Origin: a virus
Reading direction: 5' to 3' (one strand)
Virus record (IMG/VR): IMGVR_UViG_3300007963_000041
Coordinates: 1 to 25,643 of that record
Length of the DNA stretch: 25,643 nt
The notes below the pieces were generated by a model. It ran no database searches, was not told the origin of the DNA, and saw only the letters and a list, made by a program, of their open reading frames with translations. Shown here in pieces: positions 1 to 20,484 of this stretch. The translations under genes and the position numbers were made by a program. Within the stretch, counting starts at the first letter, position 1. Each line of letters begins with the position of its first letter.

Positions 1-2
1 AA

Positions 3-835: not shown

Positions 836-842
836 GAATTTT

Positions 843-2005: not shown

Positions 2006-2484
2006 CTGTAGATGTAAAGCAGGTCTATAACGAGGTTGCTTCGGACGAAGGGAAAATACTTCATTGTTATTTATGTAGTGAGCTACATAAAACAGTAGGA
2101 ATAGGCCATAAAGTCTTAGAAACAGACACAGAAAACAGCCTTTCAATTTATGAGGCTTACGATAACAAAGTTCCTGAAGACCAGAAAATATCAGAGGGAA
2201 GATGTTATGAGCTTTTTCAAGAAGACATCCAGATAGCTTTAGGTGGGTGTCAAAAAATATATTCTAATTGGGAAGATTTGCCTCAAGAGGTTCAGCACAT
2301 TTTAATAAACATGTGTTTTCAGTTGGGTCAAAGAGGTCTTTCTAATTTTAAAAATATGAAATTAGCAGTTGAAGATCAAGATTACGCCAAAGCATCTATT
2401 GAAATGATGGATAGTCGTTGGGCAAAACAAACCCCTGAAAGGGCTGAAAGATTAAAAAACAGAATGTTAGCTGAGGCTGACTAG
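2002..2484 (+). CDS. T4-type lysozyme (GH24 endolysin), 160 aa
   Basis: This is a muramidase cleaving the MurNAc-GlcNAc bond of peptidoglycan for host lysis. ATG 2002 is chosen because it overlaps the preceding short ORF as ATGA and puts the catalytic helix at the N-terminus as in T4 lysozyme. Glu16 in DEG aligns with T4 Glu11, Thr31 in TVGIGH with T4 Thr26, and the position of T4 Asp20 is Cys25 (in HCYLCSE). The C-terminal DSRWAKQTPERAERL is the conserved family signature. Length is close to T4 lysozyme (164). It has no signal or SAR segment of its own, so it depends on a holin or on the adjacent membrane peptide. A second Cys (C22) lies three residues before C25. Confidence 0.9.
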   Translation: MTVDVKQVYNEVASDEGKILHCYLCSELHKTVGIGHKVLETDTENSLSIYEAYDNKVPEDQKISEGRCYELFQEDIQIALGGCQKIYSNWEDLPQEVQHILINMCFQLGQRGLSNFKNMKLAVEDQDYAKASIEMMDSRWAKQTPERAERLKNRMLAEAD

Positions 2485-2496
2485 CAGGAGATCTAT

Positions 2497-3918
2497 ATGA
2501 TTCGTTACAACCCATATCAGAGATCAATGCCTCCATATGGCGGTGGTTTTGGTGGTGGTTTTGATGGTGGTTTTGGAGGAGCATATTTGCCAAGATACCC
2601 ATCCCCTCGTATGCCTTCGCCTTATCCTATGCCCTCTCCCTTCCCCGGAAGCGGCAGTTTTGAGCCAATAAGAGGCGGGGGTATGGGTCAGGTAATTCCA
2701 ACAAATATACCTTTTAGAGATCCCGGCTATGGTTCTCCAGTAAGAACTCAAAACCTAATATCAGCAATGAGCGGCCCTCAAGACTTAATGTCTAACAGAA
2801 CCTATGGCTCTTTAAATACTTTAGATATGGTTAGAAACAGGCCAGACATGCCTCTTTACTCTAATGCTTTATTTCAAAACCCTTACAGAAGAAATAACGG
2901 TGGAGGGAAAGGAGGAAGAGGCGGTGGTTTTATAAGAACTTCTGATTTTCAAGATTCAAACATGAATGGCGTTGATGACCGTGATGAGGGAGGTGCTGGC
3001 ATAGGAGGATTTTTTGGAGGAGGTTATGGAAGAGGCATGGCTAACCCCGGTTTTCTTGGCCCTCGTCTTACTCCTCCCGGCGCACCAGAAGGAGGGCTTG
3101 GTGGCCCCGGAGAGCCAGATAATCCTTATGGTAACGATGGAACAGTTCAACCTAGAAACTATGGTGTTGATAGAGCAGGAAAGCCGTTAACTGAAGCTGC
3201 TTATAATTGGATTATTAATAACGGAGGAGAAGATACTGACGGCGACGGGATTATTAATAACGCTGAATTAGAAGCTTATCATGCTGCTCAAAACCCTGAC
3301 GCTCCCCCATCAGGAAATTATATGCCGGGAACTAGACCAACTCCTGATCCTGTAGAAGGAGGCAATCCTTATGGAACTCGATATGACGGGAAGCCTTTTA
3401 CTGAAGGAAACTTTGCCACTTTTGACAAAGCTGGAGGGGACTTAAACGATGACGGCAGGATGAGTGAAAATGAATGGCTTAGTTGGATGCTTAATAAAGG
3501 GCCATCTGAAGGGTTTGAAGAGCAGTATGCTACTAAGTTAACTGGAGCATTAAAAGCGGGTATAGAGAAAGATAGTCTCGATCCTTCTACTATTTCAAAA
3601 GCTGTTGCTGCTGGAGCAGAGCTTCCTGATATGATGGAAATAGCAAACAAAAGAGCTAATCAACCTTCTCAAACCATAGGGTCTACAATGCTTACCCCTG
3701 AAGCTATAGCTCAAATTAGAGCTAACGGTGGAGACCCAGAGGCTGTAGCAGCGGCCCTTAAAAACATAAACATGGGTAGTATATTTAGACAAACCGAACT
3801 TTCTGGGGGAGGGCGTGTTGGTAGATCCTCTAACATGCAAGGAATGAACGGGAGAGGCAGGGGGTTGTCTAGCTTGGTTAATTCTTTAAATGCAAGAAAT
3901 ACAAATCTAGTTCGTTAG
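2497..3918 (+). CDS. Gly/Pro-rich virion protein with EF-hand modules, 473 aa
   Basis: The start is ATG 2497 with AGGAG 8 bases upstream. The N-terminus is low complexity (YGGGFGGGFDGGFGG, then PSPRMPSPYPMPSPF). Three calcium-loop motifs follow: DSNMNGVDDRDE (153-164), DTDGDGIINNAE (246-257) and DLNDDGRMSENE (315-326). The latter two each sit in a repeated module opening YG..R.GKPLTE or YGTRYDGKPFTE (from Y222 and Y292). A module of the same kind recurs in the 631-residue protein encoded at 6300. The C-terminal third is helical with Gly/Arg-rich stretches. No enzyme motif seen. The position between lysozyme and tail genes suggests a structural or internal virion protein. Confidence 0.75.
   Translation: MIRYNPYQRSMPPYGGGFGGGFDGGFGGAYLPRYPSPRMPSPYPMPSPFPGSGSFEPIRGGGMGQVIPTNIPFRDPGYGSPVRTQNLISAMSGPQDLMSNRTYGSLNTLDMVRNRPDMPLYSNALFQNPYRRNNGGGKGGRGGGFIRTSDFQDSNMNGVDDRDEGGAGIGGFFGGGYGRGMANPGFLGPRLTPPGAPEGGLGGPGEPDNPYGNDGTVQPRNYGVDRAGKPLTEAAYNWIINNGGEDTDGDGIINNAELEAYHAAQNPDAPPSGNYMPGTRPTPDPVEGGNPYGTRYDGKPFTEGNFATFDKAGGDLNDDGRMSENEWLSWMLNKGPSEGFEEQYATKLTGALKAGIEKDSLDPSTISKAVAAGAELPDMMEIANKRANQPSQTIGSTMLTPEAIAQIRANGGDPEAVAAALKNINMGSIFRQTELSGGGRVGRSSNMQGMNGRGRGLSSLVNSLNARNTNLVR
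2539..2580 (+). repeat. GGTGGTTTT-type tandem repeat
   Basis: Short imperfect tandem units (GGTGGTTTTGGTGG, GATGGTGGTTTT) encode the GGGF repeats at the N-terminus of the 473-residue protein. It is a low-complexity tract that could vary in copy number by slippage. Confidence 0.6.
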
Positions 3919-3929
3919 AGTAAATAAAA

Positions 3930-5777
3930 ATGCCTTTGCAGAAAATACAATTTGCTCCCGGTGTAGATAAAGAAGGCACTGAGTATACTGCCGATTCTGG
4001 CTGGTTTGACTCTGACAAAATTAGATTTAGAAAAGGAAGGCCAGAAAAAATAGGCGGTTGGACTAAGTTTAATACAACTGCTTTTCTTGGTCTTTGTCGA
4101 TCTCTTTTTGCTTGGGCTTCTCTTCAATCTGTAAAATATATAGGTGCTGGAACTAATCTAAAATTTTATATTTTTGAAGGTTTAAATCCAAATGATGTGA
4201 CTCCTATTAGAAGCACCACAAGTGCGGGTGATGTTACATTTGCTGCTACTAACGGTTCTTCTACTATTACTATTACTGACACTGCTCACGGAGCGGCAAA
4301 AGATGATTTCGTTACTTTTTCTGATGCTGCTAGTTTAGGCGGGAACATTATCGCTGCGGTACTAAATCAAGAGTATCAGGTAGCTTCTGTTTCAAGCGCA
4401 AACGTTTACACTATTACAGCTAAAGACACTTCTGGTACTACAGTTACTGCAAACGCAAGCGACAGCGGAAATGGCGGCTCCTCAACAGTAGGGGCGTATC
4501 AAATTACCACAGGACTAAATAGTTATGTTTCTGCTGCTGGCTGGGGTTCTAACCCTTGGGGCGACTCAACTTGGGGGAGTGGATCTGGGATTGGTGTTTC
4601 TGGTCAGCTAAGACTTTATAGCCAAGATAACTTTGGTGAAGATTTAATTTTTAATGCAAGAAACAGCGGGATCTTTTATTGGGATAGCTCTAGCGGGTTA
4701 ACGAACAGGGCTATTAACATAACTCAGTTAGGAGGAGCCTCTGATTGCCCTACAGTCTCAGCGCAAGTCCTTGTTAGTGATAACGATAAGCATGTTATTG
4801 CTTTCGGAGCTAATACAATTGGATCTGCTGCTCAAGATGCTTTGCTTGTCAGGTGGTCTGACCAAGAAAATGCTGCTGATTGGACTCCAACAGCAACTAA
4901 TACCGCTGGAGGAGTAAGGGTAAACTCTGGCAGTCAAATTGTAGGCGCAGTTCAGACAAGGCAAGAAATACTAATCTGGACAGATGTTTCTGTTCATTCT
5001 ATGAGGTTTGTAGGCGCACCTTTCGTTTTTCAATTTACAACAATTAGCTCTGATGTATCCATGATATCTCCTAATGCTGCGGTTAACGCTAGAGGAAATG
5101 TTTACTTTATGGATAAAACTGGGTTCTATATCTATAACGGCGCGGTGCAACAAATACCCTGCTCAGTTCAAGATTATGTTTTAAGTAATCTAGATATCAC
5201 CCAAGCCTTTAAAGTTTTTGCGGCAGAAAATAATGCTTTCTCAGAAATCATATGGTTTTACCCTGCTACTGGTTATGGGGGAGAAGTCTCTAACTATGTA
5301 AGCTACAACTATGCTGAAAACCTTTGGGCTATCGGCACTCTGGCTAGATGTGCTTGGCTTGATAGCGGGGTTCTTGACGGGCCGATTGCTTCTAGTGCTA
5401 TTACAAGCTCAGACTCTAATTACATCTATAACCATGAGCAAGGCTTTGATGACGATGGTTCTGCTATGACTGCATACATAGAGTCTGGAGATCTTGAGAT
5501 TGGCGATGGCAATAACTTTATTATGATCGACAGAGTAGTTCCTGACTTTACTTTTTCAGGGGTTAGTCCTGAAATAACAATGACTATTAAGGGTAGTAAC
5601 TATCCTTTAGAAACCCCAGCTTCATTAGCTACATCTACCATTACATCTTCTACCAAGCAGTCAAATGTCAGAACTAGGTCTAGACATGCCACGTTAAGAA
5701 TAGAATCAGATCAAGCTGGCTTTGGTTGGAGGTTAGGTGGGTTTAGGTTTGGCATGAGGCAGGACGGGAGAAGGTAA
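3930..5777 (+). CDS. Tail nozzle / packaged-DNA stabilisation-like protein, 615 aa
   Basis: The opening MPLQKIQFAPGVDKEGTEY, then GWFDSDKIRFRKGRPEKIGGW and the phrase VGAGTNLKFYI-like IGAGTNLKFYIFEGL, is the signature of a conserved podovirus tail protein family, usually annotated as structural or as a P22 gp10-like stabilisation protein (analogous to T7 gp12). The body is beta-rich with many Ser/Thr/Gly, consistent with a propeller, and contains QILVWTD-like ILIWTDVSVHSMRFVG and ENNAFSEIIWFYP. It probably sits at the distal end of the short tail and closes the channel after packaging. The start follows the upstream stop by 11 bases, and the stop overlaps the next gene as TAATG. The family is recognised from memory; the exact gp10/gp12 equivalence is inference. 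Confidence 0.75.
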   Translation: MPLQKIQFAPGVDKEGTEYTADSGWFDSDKIRFRKGRPEKIGGWTKFNTTAFLGLCRSLFAWASLQSVKYIGAGTNLKFYIFEGLNPNDVTPIRSTTSAGDVTFAATNGSSTITITDTAHGAAKDDFVTFSDAASLGGNIIAAVLNQEYQVASVSSANVYTITAKDTSGTTVTANASDSGNGGSSTVGAYQITTGLNSYVSAAGWGSNPWGDSTWGSGSGIGVSGQLRLYSQDNFGEDLIFNARNSGIFYWDSSSGLTNRAINITQLGGASDCPTVSAQVLVSDNDKHVIAFGANTIGSAAQDALLVRWSDQENAADWTPTATNTAGGVRVNSGSQIVGAVQTRQEILIWTDVSVHSMRFVGAPFVFQFTTISSDVSMISPNAAVNARGNVYFMDKTGFYIYNGAVQQIPCSVQDYVLSNLDITQAFKVFAAENNAFSEIIWFYPATGYGGEVSNYVSYNYAENLWAIGTLARCAWLDSGVLDGPIASSAITSSDSNYIYNHEQGFDDDGSAMTAYIESGDLEIGDGNNFIMIDRVVPDFTFSGVSPEITMTIKGSNYPLETPASLATSTITSSTKQSNVRTRSRHATLRIESDQAGFGWRLGGFRFGMRQDGRR

Positions 5778-5974
5778 TGGCAGAAAGACGCAGAAACCCG
5801 CTTCCTGTACCAATGGCTGAGTACAACACTCAGAATGAAGCAATTACCAGAAGAACATTAGAATTTGCCTTAGACCAACTAGAAAATGACGTTGATCTTG
5901 CTAAAACTCAAGGCGACAAGCCGGGGTCTCTAGCAATGAGAAGGTTTCAGTTTCTGTTAATGGGGGCATCGTGA
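5777..5974 (+). CDS. Small conserved virion-region protein, 65 aa
   Basis: It begins at ATG 5777, overlapping the nozzle gene stop. It is a compact helical protein (RRNPLPVPMAEYNTQNEAIT, then RRTLEFALDQLENDVDLAK) without membrane segment or metal motif. Its tight coupling on both sides (TAATG upstream, GTGA downstream) supports expression. I know no function; an assembly or tail accessory role is only suggested by place. Confidence 0.7.
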   Translation: MAERRRNPLPVPMAEYNTQNEAITRRTLEFALDQLENDVDLAKTQGDKPGSLAMRRFQFLLMGAS

Positions 5975-6300
5975 GTGACGTTATAAAGGTTTTGGGGCAG
6001 CTTGATGTTAGTGCTACTACAACAACAGTGCTTTACACGGCTCCTAATCTTGCCCAGACAACAGTAAGCTCATTAGTTGTATGCAACCGGGGTGGATCAG
6101 GAATCACCTTTAGGGTCAGTATTCATGTGGCTGGTGCGGGTGCAGATGACAAACAGTTTATTTTTTACGATGAAGACTTAGCAGCAACAACAACGAGAAC
6201 AGTAGTGATAGGCATTTGCCTAAATCAAACAGACGTAGTGAAGGTTTACTCTAGCGCAGCAAATGTAAGCTTTAACTTATTTGGAGTGGAGACAAGTTAA
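5971..6300 (+). CDS. Small beta-rich virion protein, 109 aa
   Basis: GTG 5971 overlaps the previous stop as GTGA. The sequence (QLDVSATTTTVLYTAPNLAQ, TVSSLVVCNRGGSGITFRVS, VYSSAANVSFNLFGVE) reads as a beta-sandwich of the sort seen in small phage decoration or tail accessory proteins (LYTAP, then VCNRG, then ITFRV). There is no enzymatic motif. The stop shares bases with the next ATG (TAATG). The role is inferred from fold appearance and context. Confidence 0.65.
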   Translation: MSDVIKVLGQLDVSATTTTVLYTAPNLAQTTVSSLVVCNRGGSGITFRVSIHVAGAGADDKQFIFYDEDLAATTTRTVVIGICLNQTDVVKVYSSAANVSFNLFGVETS

Positions 6301-8195
6301 TGTATCAACAAGACTCAAGAGAACTTGAAGGAATAGCCAACCTTTTAGCAACTAAAGGCAGGTACGGGGACTCTATGATGGTTCACATGAACCCTATAGA
6401 AGTTCAGGGGCTTGCATCCATGTCTCCAACAGGATCTTTAACAATAAACCCTGATACAGGCCAGCCAGAGGCTTTCTTGCCTTTCTTAGCTCCTTTGTTG
6501 GGAAGCATGTTAGGAAGCGCGGCTGTAGGAGCAGGAGGAATTCTTTCCGGGCTTGGTTTAAGCTCTGCTGTAGGTGGGGCAATAGGATCTGGATTAACAA
6601 CAGCAATAGTGGAGGGAGACCTTAAAAAAGGATTGCTCTCAGGTATTACAGGTTTTGGTGTAGGGCAAGCTTTAGGCAAGTTGGGTTCGGCAGGTGTTGA
6701 AGGTGTTGAAACCGCTTTAAACGTACCTGCTGATAAAATAACAGGGATTTCTGATCTTGTGCCAACCCCGGAAGCCAATCTAATTGATAGTTTAGCTCCA
6801 GAAGTTAGCGGAGCAACTAGCCAATCTGTTGCAGAAGGCATTAGTTTAGGGCGAGGAATAAATGATCCTTTAGTAAAAGGTTTTGTTGAACAAGCACCTA
6901 AAAATATCCCTACTTTAACTGGCGGCTCTAGTGGGCCATCTATGAGTCAAGTTTTTTCAGGAGAAGGCTTAAAAGCTTTAACAAGCCCAACGGCTCTTGT
7001 AGCCACCGCTGTTGGTGAAGGGACTAACGAGCAGCTTAGAGTGGATGAGGCTATGGAAGACATGGCTAAAGACAGCCTAAGAAAAAAAGAACAAGACTAT
7101 AAAAGTGCAGTAGCAAGAAGAGATGCTAATTATTTCCCCGGATATCAGAAGCCATATGGCGATTCTTACACTCAGTATGCGTCTAGCGGCGGCATTGTTT
7201 CTTTAGACCCAAGTGATTTTAAAAGAAGAATGAATGAGCTTCAGCAGCTTGGAGTACCTGTTAAGAAAATGGATGTCGGGGGATTTGTTCCTAATATTGA
7301 TATTGATCGACTAATTCAACAGCCTTCCAAAGACCAAGGGGGTCTTAGAGGTGCTTTTAGTATAAGCCCAGAGCAATTAGAAAGCACTTATCAAAAGCAA
7401 GGATTGCCCGGATTTGGCCCAGAGATTATGTACTTTACAGAAGAAAAAGGTAAAGACGTAAACCCTTATGAAGGATGGATGGCTGAAGAGTATGGCTTTA
7501 ACAGAGCAGGAGAGCCTTTAACAAAAAGAGATTTTGATTACATTGTTAGTCAAGGTGGGTCAGATGCAAACAAAGATGGAATTATTGATGCTGAAGAACT
7601 AGCCGCTTATCATAAAGCTCAAGATGAAAAGAAAGCTACTGGTGGTAACGCTCCTGTTACCTTAACCCCAGAACAAATAAAGTCTTTTATGAACTATGGT
7701 CAAGACTATTCTGACTACTTTAGATTTGCAGAAGGCGGCGGGATTCAAAATTTAGCTGACAAAGAAGAATCAACTCAAGATACTGATAGATTAATTGAGT
7801 TAGCCTCGATGGCTGTTCTTGGAACTTTACCAGAAGAAGAGTCAGAAGTTGTTATTCAAGCTTTTATTGATGAGTTTGGATCTGAAGCATTTCAGATGCT
7901 TAGAGACCAAGTTCTTGAAGGCGTAGTCCCCGGATCTCAAAAGGAAGGAGAAATTGTTGGATCTGGCGGCGGTATGGATGATGAGATTATGGGTATGATT
8001 GGAAATCAACAGCCTGTAGCAGTATCCCCCGGAGAATATATTGTCCCCGCTGATGTTGTTTCTGGCCTTGGTGACGGGTCAACAGATGCAGGAGTACAAG
8101 AATTAGATGGTATGCTAGACAGGGTTAGAGTAGAAAGAACTAACACAACACAACAACCAGCCCCTTTGCGTAAAGGAGGAGTTCTTCCTAGATGA
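6300..8195 (+). CDS. Large internal/tail virion protein with EF-hand module and VPADVVS C-terminus, 631 aa
   Basis: Residues about 60-120 form a Gly/Ala-rich hydrophobic stretch (LLGSMLGSAAVGAGG, GLSSAVGGAIGSGL), as in virion proteins that interact with membranes during DNA ejection. A module starting at Y398 (YGFNRAGEPLT) carries the EF-hand loop DANKDGIIDAEE (422-433) and is clearly related to the module at Y222 of the protein at 2497. The C-terminus has VSPGEYIVPADVVSGLGDGS and DAGVQELDGMLDRVR, a terminal module common in podovirus structural proteins. It starts at ATG 6300 (TAATG) and ends overlapping the next gene (ATGA). I infer a role in the ejection or tail complex; no catalytic motif is seen. 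Confidence 0.7.
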   Translation: MYQQDSRELEGIANLLATKGRYGDSMMVHMNPIEVQGLASMSPTGSLTINPDTGQPEAFLPFLAPLLGSMLGSAAVGAGGILSGLGLSSAVGGAIGSGLTTAIVEGDLKKGLLSGITGFGVGQALGKLGSAGVEGVETALNVPADKITGISDLVPTPEANLIDSLAPEVSGATSQSVAEGISLGRGINDPLVKGFVEQAPKNIPTLTGGSSGPSMSQVFSGEGLKALTSPTALVATAVGEGTNEQLRVDEAMEDMAKDSLRKKEQDYKSAVARRDANYFPGYQKPYGDSYTQYASSGGIVSLDPSDFKRRMNELQQLGVPVKKMDVGGFVPNIDIDRLIQQPSKDQGGLRGAFSISPEQLESTYQKQGLPGFGPEIMYFTEEKGKDVNPYEGWMAEEYGFNRAGEPLTKRDFDYIVSQGGSDANKDGIIDAEELAAYHKAQDEKKATGGNAPVTLTPEQIKSFMNYGQDYSDYFRFAEGGGIQNLADKEESTQDTDRLIELASMAVLGTLPEEESEVVIQAFIDEFGSEAFQMLRDQVLEGVVPGSQKEGEIVGSGGGMDDEIMGMIGNQQPVAVSPGEYIVPADVVSGLGDGSTDAGVQELDGMLDRVRVERTNTTQQPAPLRKGGVLPR

Positions 8196-8695
8196 AAGCA
8201 GAAAACACAACAATTGTTGATTTTTTACCAGAGAAAAAACAAGAACGAGTTTCTAAACAAAACGAAGAAAGGGAAAGCACCCATTTCATTGCGTTAGTTC
8301 CTGTAGAGTATCTAGGTCAAACATGGCCTGATGTTAGAGAAGAGATAGAACGTGCTGTTTTAAGAGCTAACGGTAGGTGGAGTTTGGAGGCTTTGTACGC
8401 ATCAATACTTCATGGAGAGCAGCAGTTGTGGGTTGCTTTTGATGAAGACAAAAATATTGAAGGGGTAGGAACAACAGAAATAGCGTATTACCCTGCAAAA
8501 ACAATGTTAGCAATCCAGTTTTTAGGCGGCAAAAACTTTAATGGCTGGGTTTGGGACATGTTAGAAAAATTTAAACAGTTTGGTAGAGATCAAGGATGCC
8601 AAGGCATTGAAGCAACAGGCAGACCGGGATTTTGGAAATGGTTAGGGCAGGATGGGTTTGATAAATCCTATGTTGTATATGAGAAGGAGTTATAA
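8192..8695 (+). CDS. GNAT-fold-like virion-region protein, 167 aa
   Basis: After a charged N-terminal tail (PEKKQERVSKQNEERES) the sequence follows the compact GNAT-like family found next to podovirus internal virion genes (compare T7 gp13-type proteins): helix WPDVREEIERAVLRANGRWS, then EQQLWVAFDEDKNIEGVGTT as central strands, QFLGGKNFNGWV, then GCQGIEATGRPGFWKWL and a closing strand (SYVVYEKEL). The canonical acetyl-CoA loop (Q/RxxGxG/A) is not evident, so enzymatic activity is doubtful. ATG 8192 overlaps the previous stop and the next gene starts the base after its stop. Fold assignment is moderate; the ejection-module role is inferred from neighbours. Confidence 0.65.
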   Translation: MKAENTTIVDFLPEKKQERVSKQNEERESTHFIALVPVEYLGQTWPDVREEIERAVLRANGRWSLEALYASILHGEQQLWVAFDEDKNIEGVGTTEIAYYPAKTMLAIQFLGGKNFNGWVWDMLEKFKQFGRDQGCQGIEATGRPGFWKWLGQDGFDKSYVVYEKEL

Positions 8696-9751
8696 ATGGG
8701 CAAGGGAAGCAGTTCTCCAAGCACACAAAGAAGCGAGGTAGTCCAATCCAATCTTCCAGAATACGCTAGACCGTATTATGAAGACCTTCTTGGAAGGACA
8801 ACATATGAGTCAACAAGACCTTACACCCCTTATCCGGGCCAAAGAATGGCCTATTTTGATCCTTATGAGTCTCTGGCTCAGGAGGGTACTGCCCAGCTAG
8901 GGCTTCAAGGCGCACCTTCTCAGATAGGCTCTGCGACAGATATAGCGACTCAGGTTGGCTATCAACCGACAGGGCAGGGGATAGATATTGCTAGGCAGTA
9001 TCAGCCTCAACGGCAAAGCACAAGCTACTACGGGGGGAGTGTTGCTGACCCTTCTACCGTTAGGGCTTACATGAATCCTTATCAACAGAATGTAACCGAT
9101 ATTCAAAAGAGAGCGGCTGTAAGGCAGTCTAGGATTCAAGGTAATGAGATAGCGGGGCAAGCAGCGCAAGCTGGAGGCTTGGGAGGCTATCGAGAAGCAA
9201 TTATGCAAGCTGAACGTCAAAGGAATCTAAATCAATCTCTTGATGATATGCAAGCTCAAGGAAATCTGGCGGGTTATCAACAGGCTATGCAGGGTATAGA
9301 AGCCGATAGAAGATCCAGAATGGATGAAGATACCCGAAGAATGCAAGCAAGACAGCAAAATGCTGAACTTATGAGACAAAGATCTGATTTAGGTCTTGCG
9401 GGGCTTGGTCAAGACATGGCTATGAGAGATCAATCTTTACGGGCAGCGGGAATGTTGTCTGATCTAGGTAAAGCTGATCAATCAATGGCACTTGAAAGGC
9501 TGGGTGCTTTGGGTGGTGTTGGTGAAATAAGAAGAGGCATGGCTCAAAGGTCTATGGATACAGGTTATGAAGATTACCTGCGTCAAAGATCATATCCTTA
9601 CCAGCAACTTAATTTGTTTAGCCAGATGCTACAGGGATTACCTGTTACCCCAGAACAAACAAGAAGCATTTATGGCGGCCCTTCTGCGGCTCAACAAGCA
9701 CTGGGAGCGGGTATTGGTGGTCTTGGTCTATACAGGTCATTGAGAGGTTAA
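8696..9751 (+). CDS. Gln-rich virion protein of the PEYARPYYEDLLG type, 351 aa
   Basis: The sequence matches a family I know from large marine phages: NLPEYARPYYEDLLGRT near residue 20, PYPGQRMAYFDPYE, the block YMNPYQQNVTDIQKRAAVRQ, GGLGGYREAIMQAERQRNL, a long Gln/Arg/Met-rich helical middle and LPVTPEQTRSIYGG before a Gly-rich C-terminus. It is helical, soluble and lacks enzyme motifs. It abuts the preceding stop exactly and leaves one base to the next ATG. It is likely an internal virion or tail-associated structural protein; the mechanistic role is unknown. Confidence 0.7.
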   Translation: MGKGSSSPSTQRSEVVQSNLPEYARPYYEDLLGRTTYESTRPYTPYPGQRMAYFDPYESLAQEGTAQLGLQGAPSQIGSATDIATQVGYQPTGQGIDIARQYQPQRQSTSYYGGSVADPSTVRAYMNPYQQNVTDIQKRAAVRQSRIQGNEIAGQAAQAGGLGGYREAIMQAERQRNLNQSLDDMQAQGNLAGYQQAMQGIEADRRSRMDEDTRRMQARQQNAELMRQRSDLGLAGLGQDMAMRDQSLRAAGMLSDLGKADQSMALERLGALGGVGEIRRGMAQRSMDTGYEDYLRQRSYPYQQLNLFSQMLQGLPVTPEQTRSIYGGPSAAQQALGAGIGGLGLYRSLRG

Positions 9752-9752
9752 T

Positions 9753-11759
9753 ATGAACATTCTTCAGCAAGAAGACTTAGTTAAAGGCTTGCCTGATCAG
9801 GCTCTTATGCAGCAAGCCCAGATGCCAACAGGGGAGCTACCTCAGTTTTTAGTTGTATCTGAGATACAAAGAAGAGAAAAGATGAGGAAAAGTTTTGCTG
9901 AAGCTGTTCCTGAAGAGTCAATAAAAGATCAGGTAATTAGCAGCGGCATAGCGGCTATGAACCCTACTCCTGACCCTTTAATGGCAAATGCTATGGGTGT
10001 ACAGGGTGGTCAAGATCCTATGATGGGTCAAACACAAGATCCAATGATGCAGCAGCAGGTTATGGCTGCTGATGGTGGGATGATGCCTTATCGGATGGAT
10101 GAAGGAAGGGGCGTTCCAAATATTACCCCAAGAGATCATATAGGCTCTTCTTTTCAGTTATTAGAAATGGGGCAGATAAGCAATGTAGAAGCTATATCTG
10201 AGGCTATAAGGCAATTAAAAAAGGCTAAGTCTAGCGAAGAGCTAGAAGACTTACGTTCTTTTATAGAATATAAAGCTGCTACATCAGAAGGTATGCCAGA
10301 AGATCTTGCAAATACTTTATACAACTACTCTTACTCTCCCGCTAAATCATTGATAGACGAGATTTCAAGACGCAGGGAAGAAAACACTGCGGCGGGTCTC
10401 CCTTCTGCTTCAATAGACTCTAATGCAATTCGGGAGGATATTGCGAAAAATAACGAGGTTGATCTTCCTTTAGCTCAATACATCTTAGCCGAAGAGTCAG
10501 GCGGCAGTAAGATCAATAGAAAAGTTCAAGAACGTCAAGAATCTGATATTGCAGAATCTCAGGGAAGAAGTCGAAGCGGCATTATGTCGCTTAACCCTCA
10601 AATAACTGATGCCGACAGAATCTACGCTGGAGATACGCTTAATCTTTCTGGCGGGGGCATCACCCCTTACAAGATGAATGCTGGACGCAAAACTTACAGT
10701 GCTAAAGAATTACAGGCGATAGAAAACCTTATAGTTAAAGGTTATTCCAAAGAAGAAGCAGAAAATATTGTTAGATTCACTCCCACTGGTGAAACACAAA
10801 AAGAAATAGCTGAAAGCATTTATGATTATCAGCCTCCGATTGAAACAGGAAGGCGTGGGAATCGAAGAATTCCCGGTGGAGAGACAAGAGAATCCTTAAT
10901 GAAAAGAATATTTGGAGATAATGTCCCTGAATTTATGATGGGCTTTAGCTCTTACCCATCCATAGCCGGAAAAAACAAGTTTATGGATTTAGCTGCCAAA
11001 GAAGGTTTTCTTGATAAACTCTCTTCTAATAATGGCGCAACTGTTGCAGATGTTGTTTCTGAAGAAAAAGTCGAAGAAATAATCCCCGACAACATTGTTG
11101 TCGGGGCTAAATCAGAAGATTTTTTTCTCCCCGGCTATGGCAATAGAGATGTAAAACCTCCTTATCGGCGTGAAAGCGATTCTGGTGCTAAAGGCAATCA
11201 AGTTAACCCAACTGATTTTTTGTCTAAGTTAGATACTTTTAGAAATACATATGGAAATAACCCTAATACAAATTCTATTTTAAAATCTGTTAATTATTTA
11301 GACAATAGTTTAACAACAAACTTTGAAGGACTTCTTGATGCCGAAAGAACAAGATCTCTAGAGGCTTCCAAAGAAATGAAAGCAGATGCGATGAATAATG
11401 CTTTAGTTCAGTTGGGCGCGGGAATAGCAAAAGGAGACTTGTCTGGAGGCTTATCTAAAGCTGGCACAGTTGCTATGCAGGGAAGAAAAGAAGCTAGGGC
11501 AGAAGAGAAAGGATTAACTGGCCTAGAGAGACAGATGAAGTTGTTGGGAGCGCAGGAAAAATCTTCTCTCGCCCGTAAGCAATTAGAATCAGAAGCAGAA
11601 ATTGAAAGATTTAATTTGCAGACAGCAATTAGCCAAGATAAAAACACTCTTGAAGCTTTTAAAGCGTTGGAAGCTTTGGGGATACAAAGAGAAGCTGCTG
11701 ATACAGCCGCAGAAAAACAAGCTCTTGATGATAAGATTGGTGCTGCAAGAATAAAATAG
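9753..11759 (+). CDS. Virion protein of the MNILQQEDLV type, 668 aa to an in-frame amber codon
   Basis: The N-terminus (QQEDLVKGLPDQALMQQAQ, PTGELPQFLVVSEIQRRE) is a conserved start of a large structural protein found before giant polyvalent proteins in marine phages. A Met/Gln-rich stretch follows (DPMMGQTQDPMMQQQ), then a long region with IAESQGRSRSGIMSLN and a helical coiled-coil C-terminus from about residue 560 (SSLARKQLESEAEIERFNLQ). Translation stops at TAG 11757-11759, but the same frame stays open for 87 more codons to TAA 12021-12023, which then lies 2 bases from the next start. The intact product would be about 756 residues. A natural nonsense mutation, sequencing/assembly error or programmed readthrough are all possible. 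Confidence 0.75.
   Translation: MNILQQEDLVKGLPDQALMQQAQMPTGELPQFLVVSEIQRREKMRKSFAEAVPEESIKDQVISSGIAAMNPTPDPLMANAMGVQGGQDPMMGQTQDPMMQQQVMAADGGMMPYRMDEGRGVPNITPRDHIGSSFQLLEMGQISNVEAISEAIRQLKKAKSSEELEDLRSFIEYKAATSEGMPEDLANTLYNYSYSPAKSLIDEISRRREENTAAGLPSASIDSNAIREDIAKNNEVDLPLAQYILAEESGGSKINRKVQERQESDIAESQGRSRSGIMSLNPQITDADRIYAGDTLNLSGGGITPYKMNAGRKTYSAKELQAIENLIVKGYSKEEAENIVRFTPTGETQKEIAESIYDYQPPIETGRRGNRRIPGGETRESLMKRIFGDNVPEFMMGFSSYPSIAGKNKFMDLAAKEGFLDKLSSNNGATVADVVSEEKVEEIIPDNIVVGAKSEDFFLPGYGNRDVKPPYRRESDSGAKGNQVNPTDFLSKLDTFRNTYGNNPNTNSILKSVNYLDNSLTTNFEGLLDAERTRSLEASKEMKADAMNNALVQLGAGIAKGDLSGGLSKAGTVAMQGRKEARAEEKGLTGLERQMKLLGAQEKSSLARKQLESEAEIERFNLQTAISQDKNTLEAFKALEALGIQREAADTAAEKQALDDKIGAARIK
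11084..11106. repeat. Perfect inverted repeat inside the virion gene
   Basis: Two 11-base arms, CCCCGACAACA and TGTTGTCGGGG, are separated by a single T. In RNA this gives a 9-bp GC-rich stem with a 5-base loop. A T-rich stretch (GATTTTTTTC) follows about 14 bases later. It lies within codons for IPDNIVVGA, so it could pause ribosomes or RNA polymerase, act as a protein-binding palindrome, or be chance. Confidence 0.6.
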
Positions 11760-12023
11760 TATGAAGCTCAAGCTGAGTGGTATGCGTCAGGCGGTAGCGC
11801 AAAAAATCCAATAGTAGAAGCTCAAACGTATTATAACAAGCTAGGGACGCAAAGAAGGCTAGAGCTAAAAAATAAGTACGGTAACGAAGAAGCGGCTATT
11901 CAAGCTATTGTTGCTATGATGGCTTCGGGTGAGATAGACCCTATAGCAATGTCTGGAGGGCCAACAGCTCTTCCTACTACAGGTAGTGGCGGTCACAGCA
12001 TCCTCAGAGTGAGGAATGATTAA
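11760..12023 (+). pseudogene. In-frame extension after the amber codon (readthrough or broken C-terminus), 87 codons
   Basis: Continuing the frame of the gene at 9753 past TAG gives 87 sense codons (opening YEAQAEWYASGGSAKNP, then YYNKLGTQRRLELKNKYGNE, EEAAIQAIVAMMASGEIDP) ending at TAA 12021. The composition matches the neighbouring genes and it continues the helical character of the upstream C-terminus. Nothing resembling a separate ribosome site or good start is visible, so independent translation is unlikely. If it is not translated, this is the only stretch over 200 bases without a gene inside the late operon. Confidence 0.7.
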
Positions 12024-12025
12024 GA

Positions 12026-15000
12026 ATGCCTATTTATGAGGTAACAGACCCTCTTGGTCGCATCATGGAGGTTCAGGGGTCTACCCCTCCAAGCCCCATG
12101 CAGATTCAAGCGTTGTTTGAAAGGTACGATTCCGAAAAAGAAGAAAGGTTTGCAGAAGAAAGAACTTTTGGTGGGCAAGCTTTTGAAACAGTAAAAGCCG
12201 TCCCCCGTAACTTCGCAGGATCTTTCCTGACGGCGGGAGAGGGTCTTGCTGAACTAGCTGATGCTGCTACTAACTTTGTTGGCTTAGAAGATCTGATAGA
12301 TAGTGGAGAAGAGAACGAGTTAGTTCGTCTTTCGAGGGAAGGCAGGGCTTCTTTGCAGGAAGCTATGGGTGCTGACGAGGCTTACAGAGACACATGGCTA
12401 ACTAAATTTGGAGAAGGCGTAGGTTCATTTGCCAGCTTCTTTACCCCAGCAGCGGCTTTAAAGGTTGCTGGGGCCACAGGAAAACTAGCTGGCCTTGCTC
12501 AAACAGCAGGAACTGGAGCTTTAGCAGTAGGGATGGGTTCAGGAGAACAAGCCCAGAGAATACAGGCCGCTAGAAAACAAGGCATGGAGATTTCTGAAGA
12601 GGACGAAGATTTAGCAATATTTGGAGGATCTGTTGTTGGCCTATCAGAACTCCTCCCTGTTAACAGGTTACTAAGAAGAATATCCGCAGACTTAGATCCT
12701 GCTACTAAAATATCAATAAAAGAAAGAATTACTGGCGCATTAGCAACAGGTGGCGCAGAAGGTCTTCAGGAAGTAGTTGCTTCTATTCTTCAAGATGCCG
12801 TAGAAAGGGGTGTTTATAACGAAAATCTTCCTGTTACTGGTGGAGATTCTTTGTTTGAAGAGTTTACGATAGGCGGTGCTGTAGGAACATTTGCAGATCT
12901 TGCTTTAAATGGAGCAATGGGAAGAAGAAGGGAAATGGCTTCTTCCGCGCAAACAGAGTCACAAGCAAACGCAAGAGAGGCTTTAGAAAGAGCTAGAGAA
13001 GCTCAAGCTCAAAGAGTTTCAGATGCTCAACAAGCTCAACAAGAAGCAATAGAGGCTGGTATGCCTCCTCCCCCTCCCCCTGATTTAGAAGATGTTGATG
13101 TTTCTCAAATAGATGCCCCGACTCCAAATCAAATTGAAGATGCAGAGGGAAGAAGGCTTTTAGTTCCCGGCAGATATCTTAGTGTCATAGGGCCAGATGG
13201 GGAACTTTTTGAGGCTGAAGAAAGAATATCTTTTAGAACTGACAGAAAAAATCCTGACAGAAAAATAGAAGAAAGGTACGTTCAAAAAATTAATAACGAT
13301 GGGACGAAGTCTAAAGTTGTTTTATCTAGAAATGGACAGCCTGTCGAAGGTTTCAGTATTGAAGGGGTGGCTCCTGCCCCAGAAAGCGTTCCATCAAAAA
13401 GAAAAAAAGATCCTTTGCTGCAATATGCTCGACACGTTAGGCGGTTAGTAGGAAACGATCTTCTTAAAGCTGGGAGTTTTACTTACAGGGAAGGGCCAAT
13501 AGTCAATGGTAATCCTACCTTTGAGACTGTTGATAAGTTTGGTCAAAGGTACGGCAAACCATTTTCTACACAAGAAGAAGCAATTGTTTTTGCTGGAAAT
13601 ATGAATGATCAGTTGATTGAGGCAAATGTTTCTAATTCCATAGAAGAGTCTATAGAAGCATCTAATTTAGATTTGTCTCAAGAAAATCAAAACACTATGT
13701 TTCTTTATGGATACAGACTGTTACACCCAGATCAAAATCTAATTACATCAGCAGAATTAGACCAAGCTGGAGAGACAACTGTTGCCACGGGTTTTGAAGA
13801 ACAAGCAATTCCTGACGGGGATCTAGGCAACTACGCTCCGTCAAAGCTTACAATGTCTCAAAGAATTAATAAAAAACGCTTGGCAAAAGGTCTTCCCTCT
13901 ACAAATACTTTTACTATAGAAGAGGCAAAATCTGTTCTTGGGAAAAAGTTTGGCAACCTTAGAACAGGTGAAATAGAAACAGAAACCTATCAAGCTAGAA
14001 CTAAAAAAGGCAAAGACGGAAAAACTTTAAAAGATAAAGACGGAAAACCTACTATTGTTGTTGTTAGCTCGGCAGGAGAAGTAATTACTGGAAGAGCTAC
14101 TGGACTCAAGAAAAAAGGCTCAAAAGATCAGTATGAAGTTAAACCTTTTAAAAGTATGTTTGATGCCGTTGATTTTGCAAAAACAAGAAATGCAGATAGA
14201 AACCTGACAAGTATTAACGAGTCAGTATTTGCTAACAAAAAAATTAGGATTCCTGAGCTAGAAAGGTTACTTGAAAATAAAAACATTGTTACAAAGCTAG
14301 GCTCCCCTGAGTTTAGAATAATGTTAGAGGCTTTTACGGGGGTTAAAGCTTCAGGAAGAAAAAGAATAAACGATTTAACAGATGCCGAAATGAAGGTTCT
14401 GTATCAAAAAATTCGCTCTATGCCACAGTTTTCAGAACCTACAAGGCTGGTAAATTTTAATTTAAACACAAAAAATAAGATTAATTTTAAAATAAAACAG
14501 CAAAAAGAAGGTGAAGCGGAGCAAAAAGAAGTTGTTGCTCCTCCTGTAGCCCCGGAAGGAGAACCGCAAGAGCCTCTTCGTCTAGCCCCTCCTTTAAAAA
14601 CCCCTGAGTCTAAAACTTTAAATAGCATTCAAAAAAGACTAGATGAAGAGATGAAGGGTGTTGGTCTTGCTGATATTAAGGCAAATATATCTCACAGCCT
14701 TAAAAATGTTATGCGTGACGCTAACGGAAATCTTGTTTTTGGCATTAGGGCCAGAAGGGATGGTGAACAGGGTGTAATAGAGTTTGGAAAGCCGGGATCT
14801 GGAATTGTTGTTGAAGAAAGCCCTGATGCAGATGCTTTTTATTCTAATGCCGCCAATGAGATATTTTTAGGTTTAGATAAATTAAATAAAAACTTTTCTC
14901 CAGAAAAACAGTTAGACCAAGCTTTGGGTCTTCTTTCCCATGAGCAGGTTCATGCAATGAGAGCTATGAATTTGTTTACTGATAAAGAGTGGCAGGTTCT

Positions 15001-18000
15001 TAGTGATGCAGCAAAAAATAGGAAGTCTAAAGCAGAGCCAGATAAAACTTTTATTCAGATAGCTAAAAGAGATTACAGCAGGGATGGCGAAGAGGCTCAG
15101 ATAGAGGAAGCTGTAGCTGAGTTGGTTAGAGTATCAAGGACAGACCCAAGCATTGTTTCAGGAAAACCAAAAAATCTTATCCAGAGAATATCTAATTTTT
15201 TCTCTAAGATGATTGGTTTTATTGACGGGTCAGGGTTTGTTTCCTTTGAAGAGTTAATCAGAGACATTGATACTGGCGTTGTAGGAGCTAGAGAAAGAGG
15301 AGGAAGGATTCCTGTTGAAGCGGCAAGAATAGCTGGAGAAGAAGCTGAAAAAACAAGAACTCCTGACTTTTTGCCAGAAATGGTAGAAGAGGGGTCTGAA
15401 GAGGTTGTTCCTTTATCAGATAAGTTTTCAAGAACAAGTCCTACAGAGTCTCTTGGTATAGATTCCTTACTGTCTGGAAGAGAAGAAGTCCTTCCGTTAG
15501 ACAGAAAAAATACAACTGCGGAATTAGCAGAAGCACTGCAAAGAAGAGCAGAAAACAGCGGCTACAATTTAGAAGCTCAAACAGAAGAAAACAGTGAGGT
15601 TATTGCAAGAATAATAGCTGACGAGGTAAAGAAAGCTTATTCTGCTGATGGTAACGCTGCAAACTGGTACAGGGAAAAAATAGATAACCTGTTAGCTATA
15701 GCTTCAGAGCTTTATCCAGAGCTTAAAGATAGCAATCATCAAAAATCTGCTTTTGTTGCTTCGGTTGCATTTTATAGCAACGGGCTTGATGTTGCTAAAA
15801 ATTTAGAACTAGCCGTTGAAGCCTACGAATACTTTAGGACTAATGGAAGACTGCCTGAAGGTCTTGGTATTGGCCCTCAAGGAGATGGGATAGAAAGTGC
15901 CGTAAAGACCTACAACGCAATGTTGGACGAGTATGGCCTAGAAGATACATACAAAATTCTTAATACAGAGACAAACCTTACCACGCTAAAGCAATTGGGA
16001 TATAAAGTCCCTGCTGGTGACGCAGCTTCTTTTGAAACTCCCATTAGTTATATATTTGGGCCAAAAATTGGCGGTGGCTTCTATCAAAATCTTTTAGGCA
16101 ACTTTTCTCCTATAACGATGGACAGATGGTTCATGCGTACTTGGGGCAGAATTACCGGAACAATTAAAAAAGATAACCCTAAGAAAGACGAAGAGTTGCG
16201 GGAAAAGTTTAAGTCACACTTAAAGACCGCAAAGGGAAGAAAGAAAGCTGAATTGCTTGGCATAGACGCGAATCTTGCTCTAGAGTCTAACGAGTATCTT
16301 GATAGCTCTGCTAGAATATTTCACAGAAACTACAGCAAGCTAGATAAAAAAACAGGAAAAACTTACAGCGATAGAAGTGAGTTAAACAAAACAGCTAAAA
16401 ATTTAGACATCCATTTGACTGAAGGGAAAATTGCCCCCGCCAATGGCGCAGAAAGAACCTTTATAAGATCAACAATGGATAAGACTCTTGATATTCTTTC
16501 TGAAGAAGGAATTCAGTTAGATACCGCTGCTGTTCAAGCTTTAATCTGGTATCCAGAAAAAGAGCTATATATAATGTATGGAGCAGCTAATGCTAAATCC
16601 ACGCCAACTGACTACGAGCAAGAGATAAGGAAGATAGCAAATGAGAAAGGAGTTAGCGAACAGCGAATTACAAGAGCGGTTGATGGCCTCCAGCGAGGGA
16701 GAAACATCGGCTCTAGAAGAAATGAAGAGCGAGGAGATAGGGAGCTTAGTGAAGAATCTGGGGCAACTGCTTTCACCGGAAAAGCAAAAACTAGATTCGT
16801 CAGAAGCAAAATCCTTAATACCATCAGATCTGACTCCAAGCCAAGCGGAGCATCTAGAGGAAATGATGGAGCTATACCCCAATTCTTCCGTAGAAAAGCT
16901 GGCACGACAAGTAAGAAGCTTATAGCTGGTGTTCCTGTCAGGGCTACTGAAAGAGCATTAAATAAAGGAATTAAAAACAGGCTTACTTCTTCAGGCATAT
17001 ATGACGGCAAGGTACTAGAGCTTGAGTCTGGTAAACAGTCAGCCAAAGCATTTCATAAAGCAATAACTGAAGCAAAATCAGAAAACGAGTTTGGTGCTGC
17101 TGTTTACGTTTACCCTGAATCAGAATACAGGGACATGAAGCTTTTTGTAACTCCTGACGGTAGCGCAGGGTTAGCTTTAAAAGGAGATGACATTGTCTCT
17201 TTATTTAGCAAGCAAGAGCATCCTCATGTTTCTTTACCCCTAGCTTCCTTGGCGATACAGGAAGGCGGCAGAAGGCTTGATGCTTTTGATACAGCCCTTC
17301 CTGTTTTATATAACAGGCTAGGATTTAAAGTTGTTTCTAGGTTGAAATGGGACGAAGGAGAAGCTCCTCCTGATTGGGAAAAATCTGTTTTTGATGATTT
17401 TAACAATGGTGAGCCTGATGTTGTATTTATGGCTTGGGACGCAGATAACTTTACTCCTTACAGCATAAACGAAGGGGTGTTGGCTGAAGATTACGGCGAA
17501 GCCCTGTCTTTGCAAAACGAAGCTGTTGAAGAATTAAATCCTCAAGAAGGGGATTTCGTTGAAAGAGAAAGGGCTGACGGGTCTATTGTAGGTGGTGACC
17601 CTGACATACAGAAAGTTACTAGAGATGCTGGTGCTGTACAGAAGGTAGTAGATAAGAACGAAAAAGATGCCGTAGAAACAACAGCAACTTTTGTTCCAGA
17701 GTTTAATTATAGAGCAGATCCTGAAGCACAATACGTTGCTAAAAACCCTGAAGAAGGAATAGATCCATCTCCCGCTCTTTTGGACAAGTATTCCAGAAGC
17801 AGGTCTCCAGAAGTAGACCCCAAGGTTAAAAAGATAATAGACAGGATTGCTCCTCAAGCTCCTGAAAACAAAACTCCCGGTGAAACATATTTAGAAACAA
17901 CCGACATGGGTGATTTTGAGTATTGGGTAACAAAAGCTAGAGCAGCGGCAATTAACAAATGGGCTAGACTAGAACAGCTATCAAGAATACCTCAGTTTAA

Positions 18001-20482
18001 AGAAAATTTAGCAGATACAAGCGCAATGGCTGCGGCTATTTTTTCTGACAGGTCAATGGGAATAGTTGGCTCTGTTTTAAAATCAGGATCTGTTGTTTAT
18101 AGAAATGGTGTTGTCCAAGTTGAAGATTTTTTCCATACCAACAAAAGAGGAGAAAGAAAACAATACCGTGGTCTAGTAGATATCATGGCTCCTCTTTTCC
18201 AAAATAAATATAATATTTCTTTAGAAGATCTTGCGAAAACTTACGCTATAGCTAGAAGAGCGGAAGGGATGAGAAGGAGGGGTCTGCCTACTCCAGCAAA
18301 AGCTGGTGACTTAGCGGTTATAGAAGCAGAGATAGCCAAATATGTTAACGAGAATGGCGATCCAATTATTGAGGAGTGGTATGACTCATGGCAAGCCTTC
18401 AATAACAAGACTGTAGAGTTTATGAAAGCAACAGGTCTTGTTGACGATGCTTTGGCAGAGAAGTGGCTAGAAATGTCAGACTACATACCTTTTTATCGTC
18501 AAGGAGAGGCTCCAGAAGGCGAAATCCTGAATCTAGGGAAAGACGTTCCTTCCATGTTTAAGTCTGGGATGACCACGGCTTTTTCTTTTAAAAAGCTAAA
18601 AGGTAGTGAGAAAGGGGTTAACGTCCCTATGCTTGACGCGATAACAAGAAACCTGTCAATGGCTATTGATGCAGGAATGAAGAATGTTGCCCAGCAAAGA
18701 ATAATCAGAGACATGGTAACTATAGGGCAAGCATCAAAAGCAACCGTTGCTCAAACTAAAAACAAAAAACAAAATTTTGTTGTTAGCTTTAAGGTAAAAG
18801 GTAAAGATCAAAATTACGTTGTTAATGATCCTCTTTTGTTTGAGTCTCTTCAGCCTGTTGAATCTGGCGGTTTAGCTACCTCTATTGTTGCTCCTTTTAG
18901 TAATATTTTAAGAGAGATGATTACAAGAGACCCCGGATTCATGTTAGCTAACATGATGAGAGATACTCTTTCTGCCTACAACACCTCTGGTGCAGATTTT
19001 ATCCCTGTTATAGATACCATTAAGAACCTTGGTCAAGGCATAGAGGAACTTGAAAGGTTTGGGGTAGTTGGAGGGTATGATTTTGGTAACGATCCTGATG
19101 ATATGGTTAAGGCTTTTGGTGAATACTCAAAGGAAAGGGGCATTGATATTGAGGGAGGAAATACAGGGCTTAATATGTTCAAAAAGCTTTGGAATGCAGC
19201 GGGTAGGGCTACCACTGCTTCTGACGCAGCAACAAGAAGGGCTGTGTACAAGGATGTTTTAGCAAGGACGGGGAATGAAGCTGAAGCAGCTTACCAAGCC
19301 TTAGAGGTTATTAACTTTTCAAGAAGAGGAAGAAGCCCTTTAGTCAGATTCTTAACAGCGGGGATACCTTTTCTAAACGCAAGATTGCAGGGCATAGATG
19401 TTTTGTATCGCGGATATATGGGATATAACCCAGCTAATAGAGACAAAACAAGGTCTCAAGCAGTAACAACTGCCTTGGCAAGAGGTGGCTTAATCACTGC
19501 TACTACTTTAGCGTACTGGCTTTTGGTTTCTGATGACGATCAATACAAAGAAACCCCAGATGAGATAAAAGACCTTAACTGGTTGGTTCCAACGCCAATG
19601 GGTGTTCCTTTAAGACTTCCTGTTCCTTTTGAAGTTGGGTTTTTCTTTAAAACTATTCCTGAAAGAATTTTAGACTTTTACCCTGTTGCAGAAGTTTTTG
19701 GTAAGCCGGGAGCTACATCCAGCAGAGAGCTAACAGATTCTGTTTTCAGGGGAATCTCTTCAACTTTCGAGGTTAATCCTTTCGGGTTACAGATTATTGC
19801 TCCTGTTGCTGAAGCAGCTTTTAATTACAACTTCTTTACGCAAAGAGAGATTGTTCCGCTTTATGCTTCCAAGAAGCCAATGCAGGGTCTTGTTGCCAGA
19901 GAGTCCAACTTGGAGGTTTCTAAGTGGCTGGGAGAAGCAACTAACACTAGCCCAATGAAGTGGGATCATGTTTTGTATGGTTATACAGGAACTCTAGGAG
20001 CTTACTTGTTAGATACTGTAGACCAGCTTGTTTTAAAAAACCCTGTATTCACAGGCGAAAAAGGCACAGCTTCTCCTAAAAAATCCATAACAGAGCTTCC
20101 TGTTATGAAACGATTCTTTGTAAACGAGTTTTCAAGCGACAATCGTGCTGATTTTTACAGGCTACACAATGCTGTTACTGGAATCTCTCAGGCTATTAAA
20201 GACCTTGAAGCAACAGAAAGGTTTGATGAAGCGGAGGCATTGATAAACTCTCAAGGACACCTTTTGGATTTAGAAAAAGAAGTAAATTACATATCGGACA
20301 GACTGTCTAAACTTAGAAAAGATAGAACTATAATTGAAAGGTCTGATTACTCTCCAGAGGTAAAAAGAGATGTGTTGCTTGATATAAACTCAGAGATGGA
20401 TCTCCTAACAAGAGATGTTCCTTTTCTTAAAAAATATGCAAAACTTCCTGCTTCCAACAGATTTCAGCTATTAGGTTTATAG
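12026..20482 (+). CDS. Giant polyvalent internal virion protein with HEXXH, GNAT-like and LPD38-like regions, 2818 aa
   Basis: The N-terminus (MPIYEVTDPLGRIMEVQG, PPSPMQIQALF) is a short module typical of giant ejection proteins. Residues about 130-170 are Gly/Ala-rich and hydrophobic. HEQVH at 972-976 is a zinc metallopeptidase-type HEXXH, with an acidic helix (EEAQIEEAVAEL, 1022-1033) placed to give a third ligand. Around 1150-1380 lies a domain with SAFVASVAFYSNGLDVAKN and MDRWFMRTWGRI (about 1365), probably one of the large polyvalent-associated domains. Residues about 1690-1770 (VYVYPESEYRD, ALKGDDIVSLFS, LYNRLGFKVVSR) look GNAT-like. From about 1930 to the end is a helical LPD38-like region with a hydrophobic segment near 2486-2500. 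Such proteins are packaged and ejected with phage DNA and may act in the host envelope or cytoplasm. Domain names are from memory, not a search. Confidence 0.8.
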   Translation: MPIYEVTDPLGRIMEVQGSTPPSPMQIQALFERYDSEKEERFAEERTFGGQAFETVKAVPRNFAGSFLTAGEGLAELADAATNFVGLEDLIDSGEENELVRLSREGRASLQEAMGADEAYRDTWLTKFGEGVGSFASFFTPAAALKVAGATGKLAGLAQTAGTGALAVGMGSGEQAQRIQAARKQGMEISEEDEDLAIFGGSVVGLSELLPVNRLLRRISADLDPATKISIKERITGALATGGAEGLQEVVASILQDAVERGVYNENLPVTGGDSLFEEFTIGGAVGTFADLALNGAMGRRREMASSAQTESQANAREALERAREAQAQRVSDAQQAQQEAIEAGMPPPPPPDLEDVDVSQIDAPTPNQIEDAEGRRLLVPGRYLSVIGPDGELFEAEERISFRTDRKNPDRKIEERYVQKINNDGTKSKVVLSRNGQPVEGFSIEGVAPAPESVPSKRKKDPLLQYARHVRRLVGNDLLKAGSFTYREGPIVNGNPTFETVDKFGQRYGKPFSTQEEAIVFAGNMNDQLIEANVSNSIEESIEASNLDLSQENQNTMFLYGYRLLHPDQNLITSAELDQAGETTVATGFEEQAIPDGDLGNYAPSKLTMSQRINKKRLAKGLPSTNTFTIEEAKSVLGKKFGNLRTGEIETETYQARTKKGKDGKTLKDKDGKPTIVVVSSAGEVITGRATGLKKKGSKDQYEVKPFKSMFDAVDFAKTRNADRNLTSINESVFANKKIRIPELERLLENKNIVTKLGSPEFRIMLEAFTGVKASGRKRINDLTDAEMKVLYQKIRSMPQFSEPTRLVNFNLNTKNKINFKIKQQKEGEAEQKEVVAPPVAPEGEPQEPLRLAPPLKTPESKTLNSIQKRLDEEMKGVGLADIKANISHSLKNVMRDANGNLVFGIRARRDGEQGVIEFGKPGSGIVVEESPDADAFYSNAANEIFLGLDKLNKNFSPEKQLDQALGLLSHEQVHAMRAMNLFTDKEWQVLSDAAKNRKSKAEPDKTFIQIAKRDYSRDGEEAQIEEAVAELVRVSRTDPSIVSGKPKNLIQRISNFFSKMIGFIDGSGFVSFEELIRDIDTGVVGARERGGRIPVEAARIAGEEAEKTRTPDFLPEMVEEGSEEVVPLSDKFSRTSPTESLGIDSLLSGREEVLPLDRKNTTAELAEALQRRAENSGYNLEAQTEENSEVIARIIADEVKKAYSADGNAANWYREKIDNLLAIASELYPELKDSNHQKSAFVASVAFYSNGLDVAKNLELAVEAYEYFRTNGRLPEGLGIGPQGDGIESAVKTYNAMLDEYGLEDTYKILNTETNLTTLKQLGYKVPAGDAASFETPISYIFGPKIGGGFYQNLLGNFSPITMDRWFMRTWGRITGTIKKDNPKKDEELREKFKSHLKTAKGRKKAELLGIDANLALESNEYLDSSARIFHRNYSKLDKKTGKTYSDRSELNKTAKNLDIHLTEGKIAPANGAERTFIRSTMDKTLDILSEEGIQLDTAAVQALIWYPEKELYIMYGAANAKSTPTDYEQEIRKIANEKGVSEQRITRAVDGLQRGRNIGSRRNEERGDRELSEESGATAFTGKAKTRFVRSKILNTIRSDSKPSGASRGNDGAIPQFFRRKAGTTSKKLIAGVPVRATERALNKGIKNRLTSSGIYDGKVLELESGKQSAKAFHKAITEAKSENEFGAAVYVYPESEYRDMKLFVTPDGSAGLALKGDDIVSLFSKQEHPHVSLPLASLAIQEGGRRLDAFDTALPVLYNRLGFKVVSRLKWDEGEAPPDWEKSVFDDFNNGEPDVVFMAWDADNFTPYSINEGVLAEDYGEALSLQNEAVEELNPQEGDFVERERADGSIVGGDPDIQKVTRDAGAVQKVVDKNEKDAVETTATFVPEFNYRADPEAQYVAKNPEEGIDPSPALLDKYSRSRSPEVDPKVKKIIDRIAPQAPENKTPGETYLETTDMGDFEYWVTKARAAAINKWARLEQLSRIPQFKENLADTSAMAAAIFSDRSMGIVGSVLKSGSVVYRNGVVQVEDFFHTNKRGERKQYRGLVDIMAPLFQNKYNISLEDLAKTYAIARRAEGMRRRGLPTPAKAGDLAVIEAEIAKYVNENGDPIIEEWYDSWQAFNNKTVEFMKATGLVDDALAEKWLEMSDYIPFYRQGEAPEGEILNLGKDVPSMFKSGMTTAFSFKKLKGSEKGVNVPMLDAITRNLSMAIDAGMKNVAQQRIIRDMVTIGQASKATVAQTKNKKQNFVVSFKVKGKDQNYVVNDPLLFESLQPVESGGLATSIVAPFSNILREMITRDPGFMLANMMRDTLSAYNTSGADFIPVIDTIKNLGQGIEELERFGVVGGYDFGNDPDDMVKAFGEYSKERGIDIEGGNTGLNMFKKLWNAAGRATTASDAATRRAVYKDVLARTGNEAEAAYQALEVINFSRRGRSPLVRFLTAGIPFLNARLQGIDVLYRGYMGYNPANRDKTRSQAVTTALARGGLITATTLAYWLLVSDDDQYKETPDEIKDLNWLVPTPMGVPLRLPVPFEVGFFFKTIPERILDFYPVAEVFGKPGATSSRELTDSVFRGISSTFEVNPFGLQIIAPVAEAAFNYNFFTQREIVPLYASKKPMQGLVARESNLEVSKWLGEATNTSPMKWDHVLYGYTGTLGAYLLDTVDQLVLKNPVFTGEKGTASPKKSITELPVMKRFFVNEFSSDNRADFYRLHNAVTGISQAIKDLEATERFDEAEALINSQGHLLDLEKEVNYISDRLSKLRKDRTIIERSDYSPEVKRDVLLDINSEMDLLTRDVPFLKKYAKLPASNRFQLLGL
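16641..16925 (+). CDS. Overprinted ORF inside the giant gene, 94 aa, acidic helical
   Basis: It is a second plus-strand frame open for 94 codons within residues about 1539-1634 of the giant protein. ATG 16641 has a good purine-rich site (AAGGAAG) ending 7 bases upstream, and in-frame stops at 16626 and 16635 fix the start. The product (ELANSELQERLMASSEGETS, EEMKSEEIGSLVKNLGQLL, LTPSQAEHLEEMMELYPN) is Glu/Leu/Ser-rich, acidic and helical, and looks more protein-like than a usual shadow frame. The main frame here is unusually basic with more C/G third positions than the rest of the gene. It could be a nested gene or chance in a stop-poor patch. No family recognised. Confidence 0.35.
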   Translation: MRKELANSELQERLMASSEGETSALEEMKSEEIGSLVKNLGQLLSPEKQKLDSSEAKSLIPSDLTPSQAEHLEEMMELYPNSSVEKLARQVRSL

Positions 20483-20484
20483 AC

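Follow-up and report, generated by a model that had tools for sequence, protein, structure and literature searches.

Introduction

The locus described here raises the question of how an amber codon inside a phage gene should be read when the frame behind it stays open almost to the start of the next gene. The window, meaning the whole 25,643-nucleotide stretch of IMG/VR virus record IMGVR_UViG_3300007963_000041, carries a gene starting at position 9753 whose frame meets a TAG after 668 amino acids and then runs through 87 further open codons to a TAA at 12021-12023. A preliminary description of the sequence offered four options for this TAG: programmed or leaky readthrough, a suppressor-dependent genome, a recent nonsense mutation, or an error. 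We find that the 266-base stretch behind the TAG is very probably the 3' end of the 9753 gene and the TAG itself a derived, single-base nonsense variant. Table 1 presents the features on which the argument turns.

Table 1. Features of the interrupted gene and its flanks in the window
Feature	Position	Strand	Evidence
Preceding gene, 351 aa, DNA-ejection-protein-like	8696..9751	+	phrog_4287, E 8.9e-10; 77-83% identical in L002-L004; used for synteny
Upstream part of the interrupted gene, 668 codons	9753..11756	+	ORF; 47 homologous loci in viral contigs; weak phrog_4602 match
In-frame TAG	11757..11759	+	TTG (Leu) in near-identical contig L001; Leu in L002, L003, L015 and L017
Last 87 codons and TAA, very probably the true 3' end of the same gene	11760..12023	+	Coding signature; motif common to homologs; open in L001
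Giant gene after the interrupted one, 2,818 aa, LPD38 domain (PF18857)	12026..20482	+	ORF; domain match

Gene Neighborhood and Geometry

The same block of genes encodes a 615-aa virion structural protein (phrog_3287) and a phage lysozyme, and we infer a virion-associated role for the 9753 product within a virion- or ejection-type module. Its N-terminal ~115 residues are strongly conserved while the remainder is highly variable. The weak PHROG match and a comparison with L004 and L016 point to a possible degenerate LysM-like stretch in the protein, recognized by eye and not through a database match to LysM. Elsewhere in the block, an esterase/lipase-like gene (1030-1602; phrog_21992, E 1.6e-23, GHSLGG motif) lies close to the lysozyme gene (1915-2484). 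The giant protein looks modular, in that separate parts of it have 24-31% identity to large proteins from unrelated phages in culture (Limnohabitans phage DC33, Escherichia phage Pondi and Synechococcus phage MinM2).

The ORF coordinates bear out the geometry given in the preliminary description, including the spacing of 2 bases between the TAA and the ATG of the giant gene. If the gene stopped at the TAG, the 266-base gap would be unique in the late region, as had been claimed; this holds within the packed block 566-20781, where the other spacings range from -29 to +12, and a 109-base gap follows after 20781. TAG had also been described as an ordinary terminator, and it does end genes at 2482, 3916 and 20480, together with an ORF on the minus strand whose end is at 24719. 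Within the block, the genes other than the interrupted one that terminate in TAG number five (1035, 2482, 3916, 20480 and 20779).

The extension resembles coding sequence. Its codon-usage log-odds score is +0.28 bits per codon in frame, and the remaining two forward frames score -1.22 and -1.03; for comparison, true genes score 0.40 +/- 0.13 and wrong frames -0.72 +/- 0.40, and 0.7% of wrong-frame stretches reach at least +0.28. From base composition, an open run of 87 codons after a stop has p ~0.003. Searches of the extension against Pfam and PHROGs gave no match. Translation restart was considered as a way to recover the extension and fails, because the first in-frame ATG (11916) yields only 35 residues and the out-of-frame ATG at 11761 only 17 codons.

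Two other features of these genes were observed. The frame of the giant gene remains open for 75 codons past its TAG at 20480 (20480-20707), a stretch that is probably due to chance, given a codon score of -0.10 and an overlap with the gene at 20485. Within the coding region of the interrupted gene, positions 11084-11106 hold a near-perfect palindrome, CCCCGACAACATTGTTGTCGGGG, also present in L001. As RNA it would form a 10-bp stem (-17.2 kcal/mol, z -4.75 versus shuffles), and no T-run follows the stem.

A Near-Identical Contig with a Sense Codon

The evidence that bears most directly on the TAG comes from IMGVR_UViG_3300025128_000550 (L001), an IMG/VR contig that matches the window base for base over 1-18305 with seven substitutions. 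At position 11758 the window reads TAG and L001 reads TTG (Leu), and the L001 gene is an unbroken ORF of 756 codons; this comparison rests on one near-identical copy, which could in principle hold an error itself. Apart from the TAG site, the extension is identical in the two. Among viral contigs, L001 was the only match both to the extension as a protein query and to a 29-base pattern across the site in which any base was allowed at the variable position. The nearest relative thus carries a sense codon at 11757 and an uninterrupted frame. Such a codon, which the preliminary description had named as evidence against its idea, was found at the level of a contig rather than of reads.

Position 11758 is the sole transversion among the seven differences. 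The other six are all transitions, four of them synonymous and two exchanging Asn and Asp. The polarity of these differences is only partly readable; at position 1282 the outgroup L002 has Asp, the same as L001, and the window state there looks derived as well. Random substitutions in these genes would be nonsense in 3-5% of cases, giving a probability of 0.19-0.28, before selection, for at least one nonsense change among seven. No special mechanism is called for.

Some properties of the two records concern their assembly and origin. At all six transitions the window has A/T and L001 has G/C, a direction that could stem from biased mutation or from amplification errors in one of the data sets. 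Both contigs begin at exactly the same base, while relatives such as L016 and L017 extend several hundred bases further upstream; the shared start suggests related read sets or a break point common to both assemblies. The final 130 bases of L001 contain two of the seven differences, a hint of strain heterogeneity at the place where this contig breaks off. A literature search found no paper naming dataset 3300025128.

Homologs and the Ancestral Codon

A family-wide search yielded 47 homologous loci in viral contigs, encoding proteins of 410-957 aa. In all 40 loci with a readable gene end and next gene, a set that includes L001 and some near-duplicates, the gene abuts its neighbor, and in none is there a gap like that of the window. 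The spacing in these readable loci is -8 to +17; in L055 and L056 the frame past the stop continues into a long ORF. Outside the viral contigs, blastn and tblastn against the phages collection found no relative of the 9753 gene. The sole match in a scan of bacterial and archaeal genomes was a contig in a Chloroflexi MAG (L057), where the gene is intact and ends in TGA. Since phage contigs are binned into MAGs unreliably, no host is claimed from this match.

Just past the TAG, where the window reads RIK, the stop and then YEAQAEWYASGG, a motif L..AQA.[FWY]Y is common to L002, L003, L015 and L017. A multiple alignment of the whole C-terminal region had too many gaps for the TAG column to be located, and the site was instead examined by local alignment and with a motif profile. 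The column is Leu in all four motif-bearing homologs, encoded by CTG, CTA, CTA and CTT, respectively. Scored against a profile of these relatives, the L001 protein reaches 34.75 exactly at the TAG site, compared with a maximum of 30.0 in 5000 shuffles; as the motif was picked by eye from the same four relatives, this score is supporting evidence and not an independent test. For L002, a single gapped alignment reaches significance (63 versus a maximum of 47 in 200 shuffles), while the pairwise alignments to L003, L015 and L017 keep the same register and are each non-significant alone. Because Leu occurs here with differing codons, the ancestral state at 11757 is a sense codon, most likely one for Leu, and on this comparative evidence the TAG is derived. 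In the comparison of homologs that the preliminary description proposed, the TAG is not conserved.

Weighing the Alternatives

Programmed or leaky readthrough would give two forms of the virion protein, of 668 aa and 756 aa. In its favor, the extension keeps the frame, resembles coding sequence and reaches up to the next gene. In Q-beta, the coat/A1 pair is a readthrough system whose leaky stop is conserved as an integral part of the gene. The likeness to that system is an in-frame extension behind the stop of a virion-type gene; the difference is that the stop in the window is private to one record. The near-identical L001 has a sense codon, and conservation of the TAG with a coding extension behind it was found in no relative, the readable homologous genes running on to the next gene. 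Nor did a search for readthrough stimulators at 11757 find any. U occupies the +4 position, and this context is reported to make readthrough in E. coli less frequent, mainly for UAA (PMC5289835); folding of the downstream RNA is no better than that of shuffles (z -0.33). Readthrough is accordingly given only a very slight chance of being correct.

Dependence on amber suppression, with the TAG read as an amino acid by means of a host or phage tRNA, is scarcely more probable. It fits a single in-frame TAG with a coding extension, and the window may be a fragment, leaving room for a tRNA elsewhere or in the host. However, five other genes in the block terminate in TAG, and L001 needs no suppressor at this site. 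No tRNA gene, with a CUA anticodon or any other, was found in the window, which may fall short of the complete genome, or in 44 related loci, and no other in-frame TAG interruption was seen in the packed block. In the amber-recoded phage phAss-1, TAG is reported within 41 ORFs (PMC10607447). What the window shares with phAss-1 and other gut phages of this kind (PMC10607447) is an in-frame TAG in a phage gene; it differs in having one such TAG, which is not conserved, in using TAG as an ordinary terminator and in the failure to find a suppressor tRNA.

It is also highly improbable that the gene truly ends at 11757 in this lineage, with the 266 bases as the remnant of an adaptive truncation. The TAG is present in the record, and the range of homolog lengths shows that the middle and C-terminal parts tolerate change. 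Yet the extension is without decay, fully open and otherwise identical to L001, and this alternative equals the nonsense-variant reading with a putative positive fitness effect added.

Of the four options first proposed, the recent nonsense mutation or error is thus favored by the sense codon in L001 and the uninterrupted homologs, while programmed readthrough and suppressor dependence are disfavored by the unconserved TAG, the tRNA search, the +4 U and the unremarkable RNA. The closest known parallel is a strain-level nonsense polymorphism (natural amber mutant) or a consensus error in a metagenome-assembled phage contig. Both involve the same single substitution from sense to stop, seen here as a near-identical contig with a sense codon and the rest of the gene intact, and the window shows no distinctive difference from them.

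Implications for the Phage

No special decoding mechanism is needed at this locus. The TAG would be a nonsense allele that really exists at strain level or else a base-call or consensus error in the record, with the allele perhaps slightly the likelier of the two. If the allele is real, the product would be 668 aa, lacking its last 88 residues, and the phage would either tolerate the loss or be defective or complemented. Since assemblers usually report the majority base, the consensus TAG hints that the allele is perhaps common in its sample. We consider it unlikely that a real amber allele of this virion/ejection-module gene exists at appreciable frequency in the wild phage population, kept there through a truncated functional protein, complementation in mixed infections or a suppressor host.

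The finding is an ordinary interrupted allele or a sequencing or assembly error, and not a new reading of the genetic code. For annotation, the gene would comprise 756 codons (756 aa) and the apparent 266-base gap would be coding. The locus illustrates that a metagenomic contig can imitate stop-codon readthrough through a single base, and that one near-identical contig suffices to reveal this. Were the allele both real and common, this uncultured phage would be an example of a natural amber mutant.
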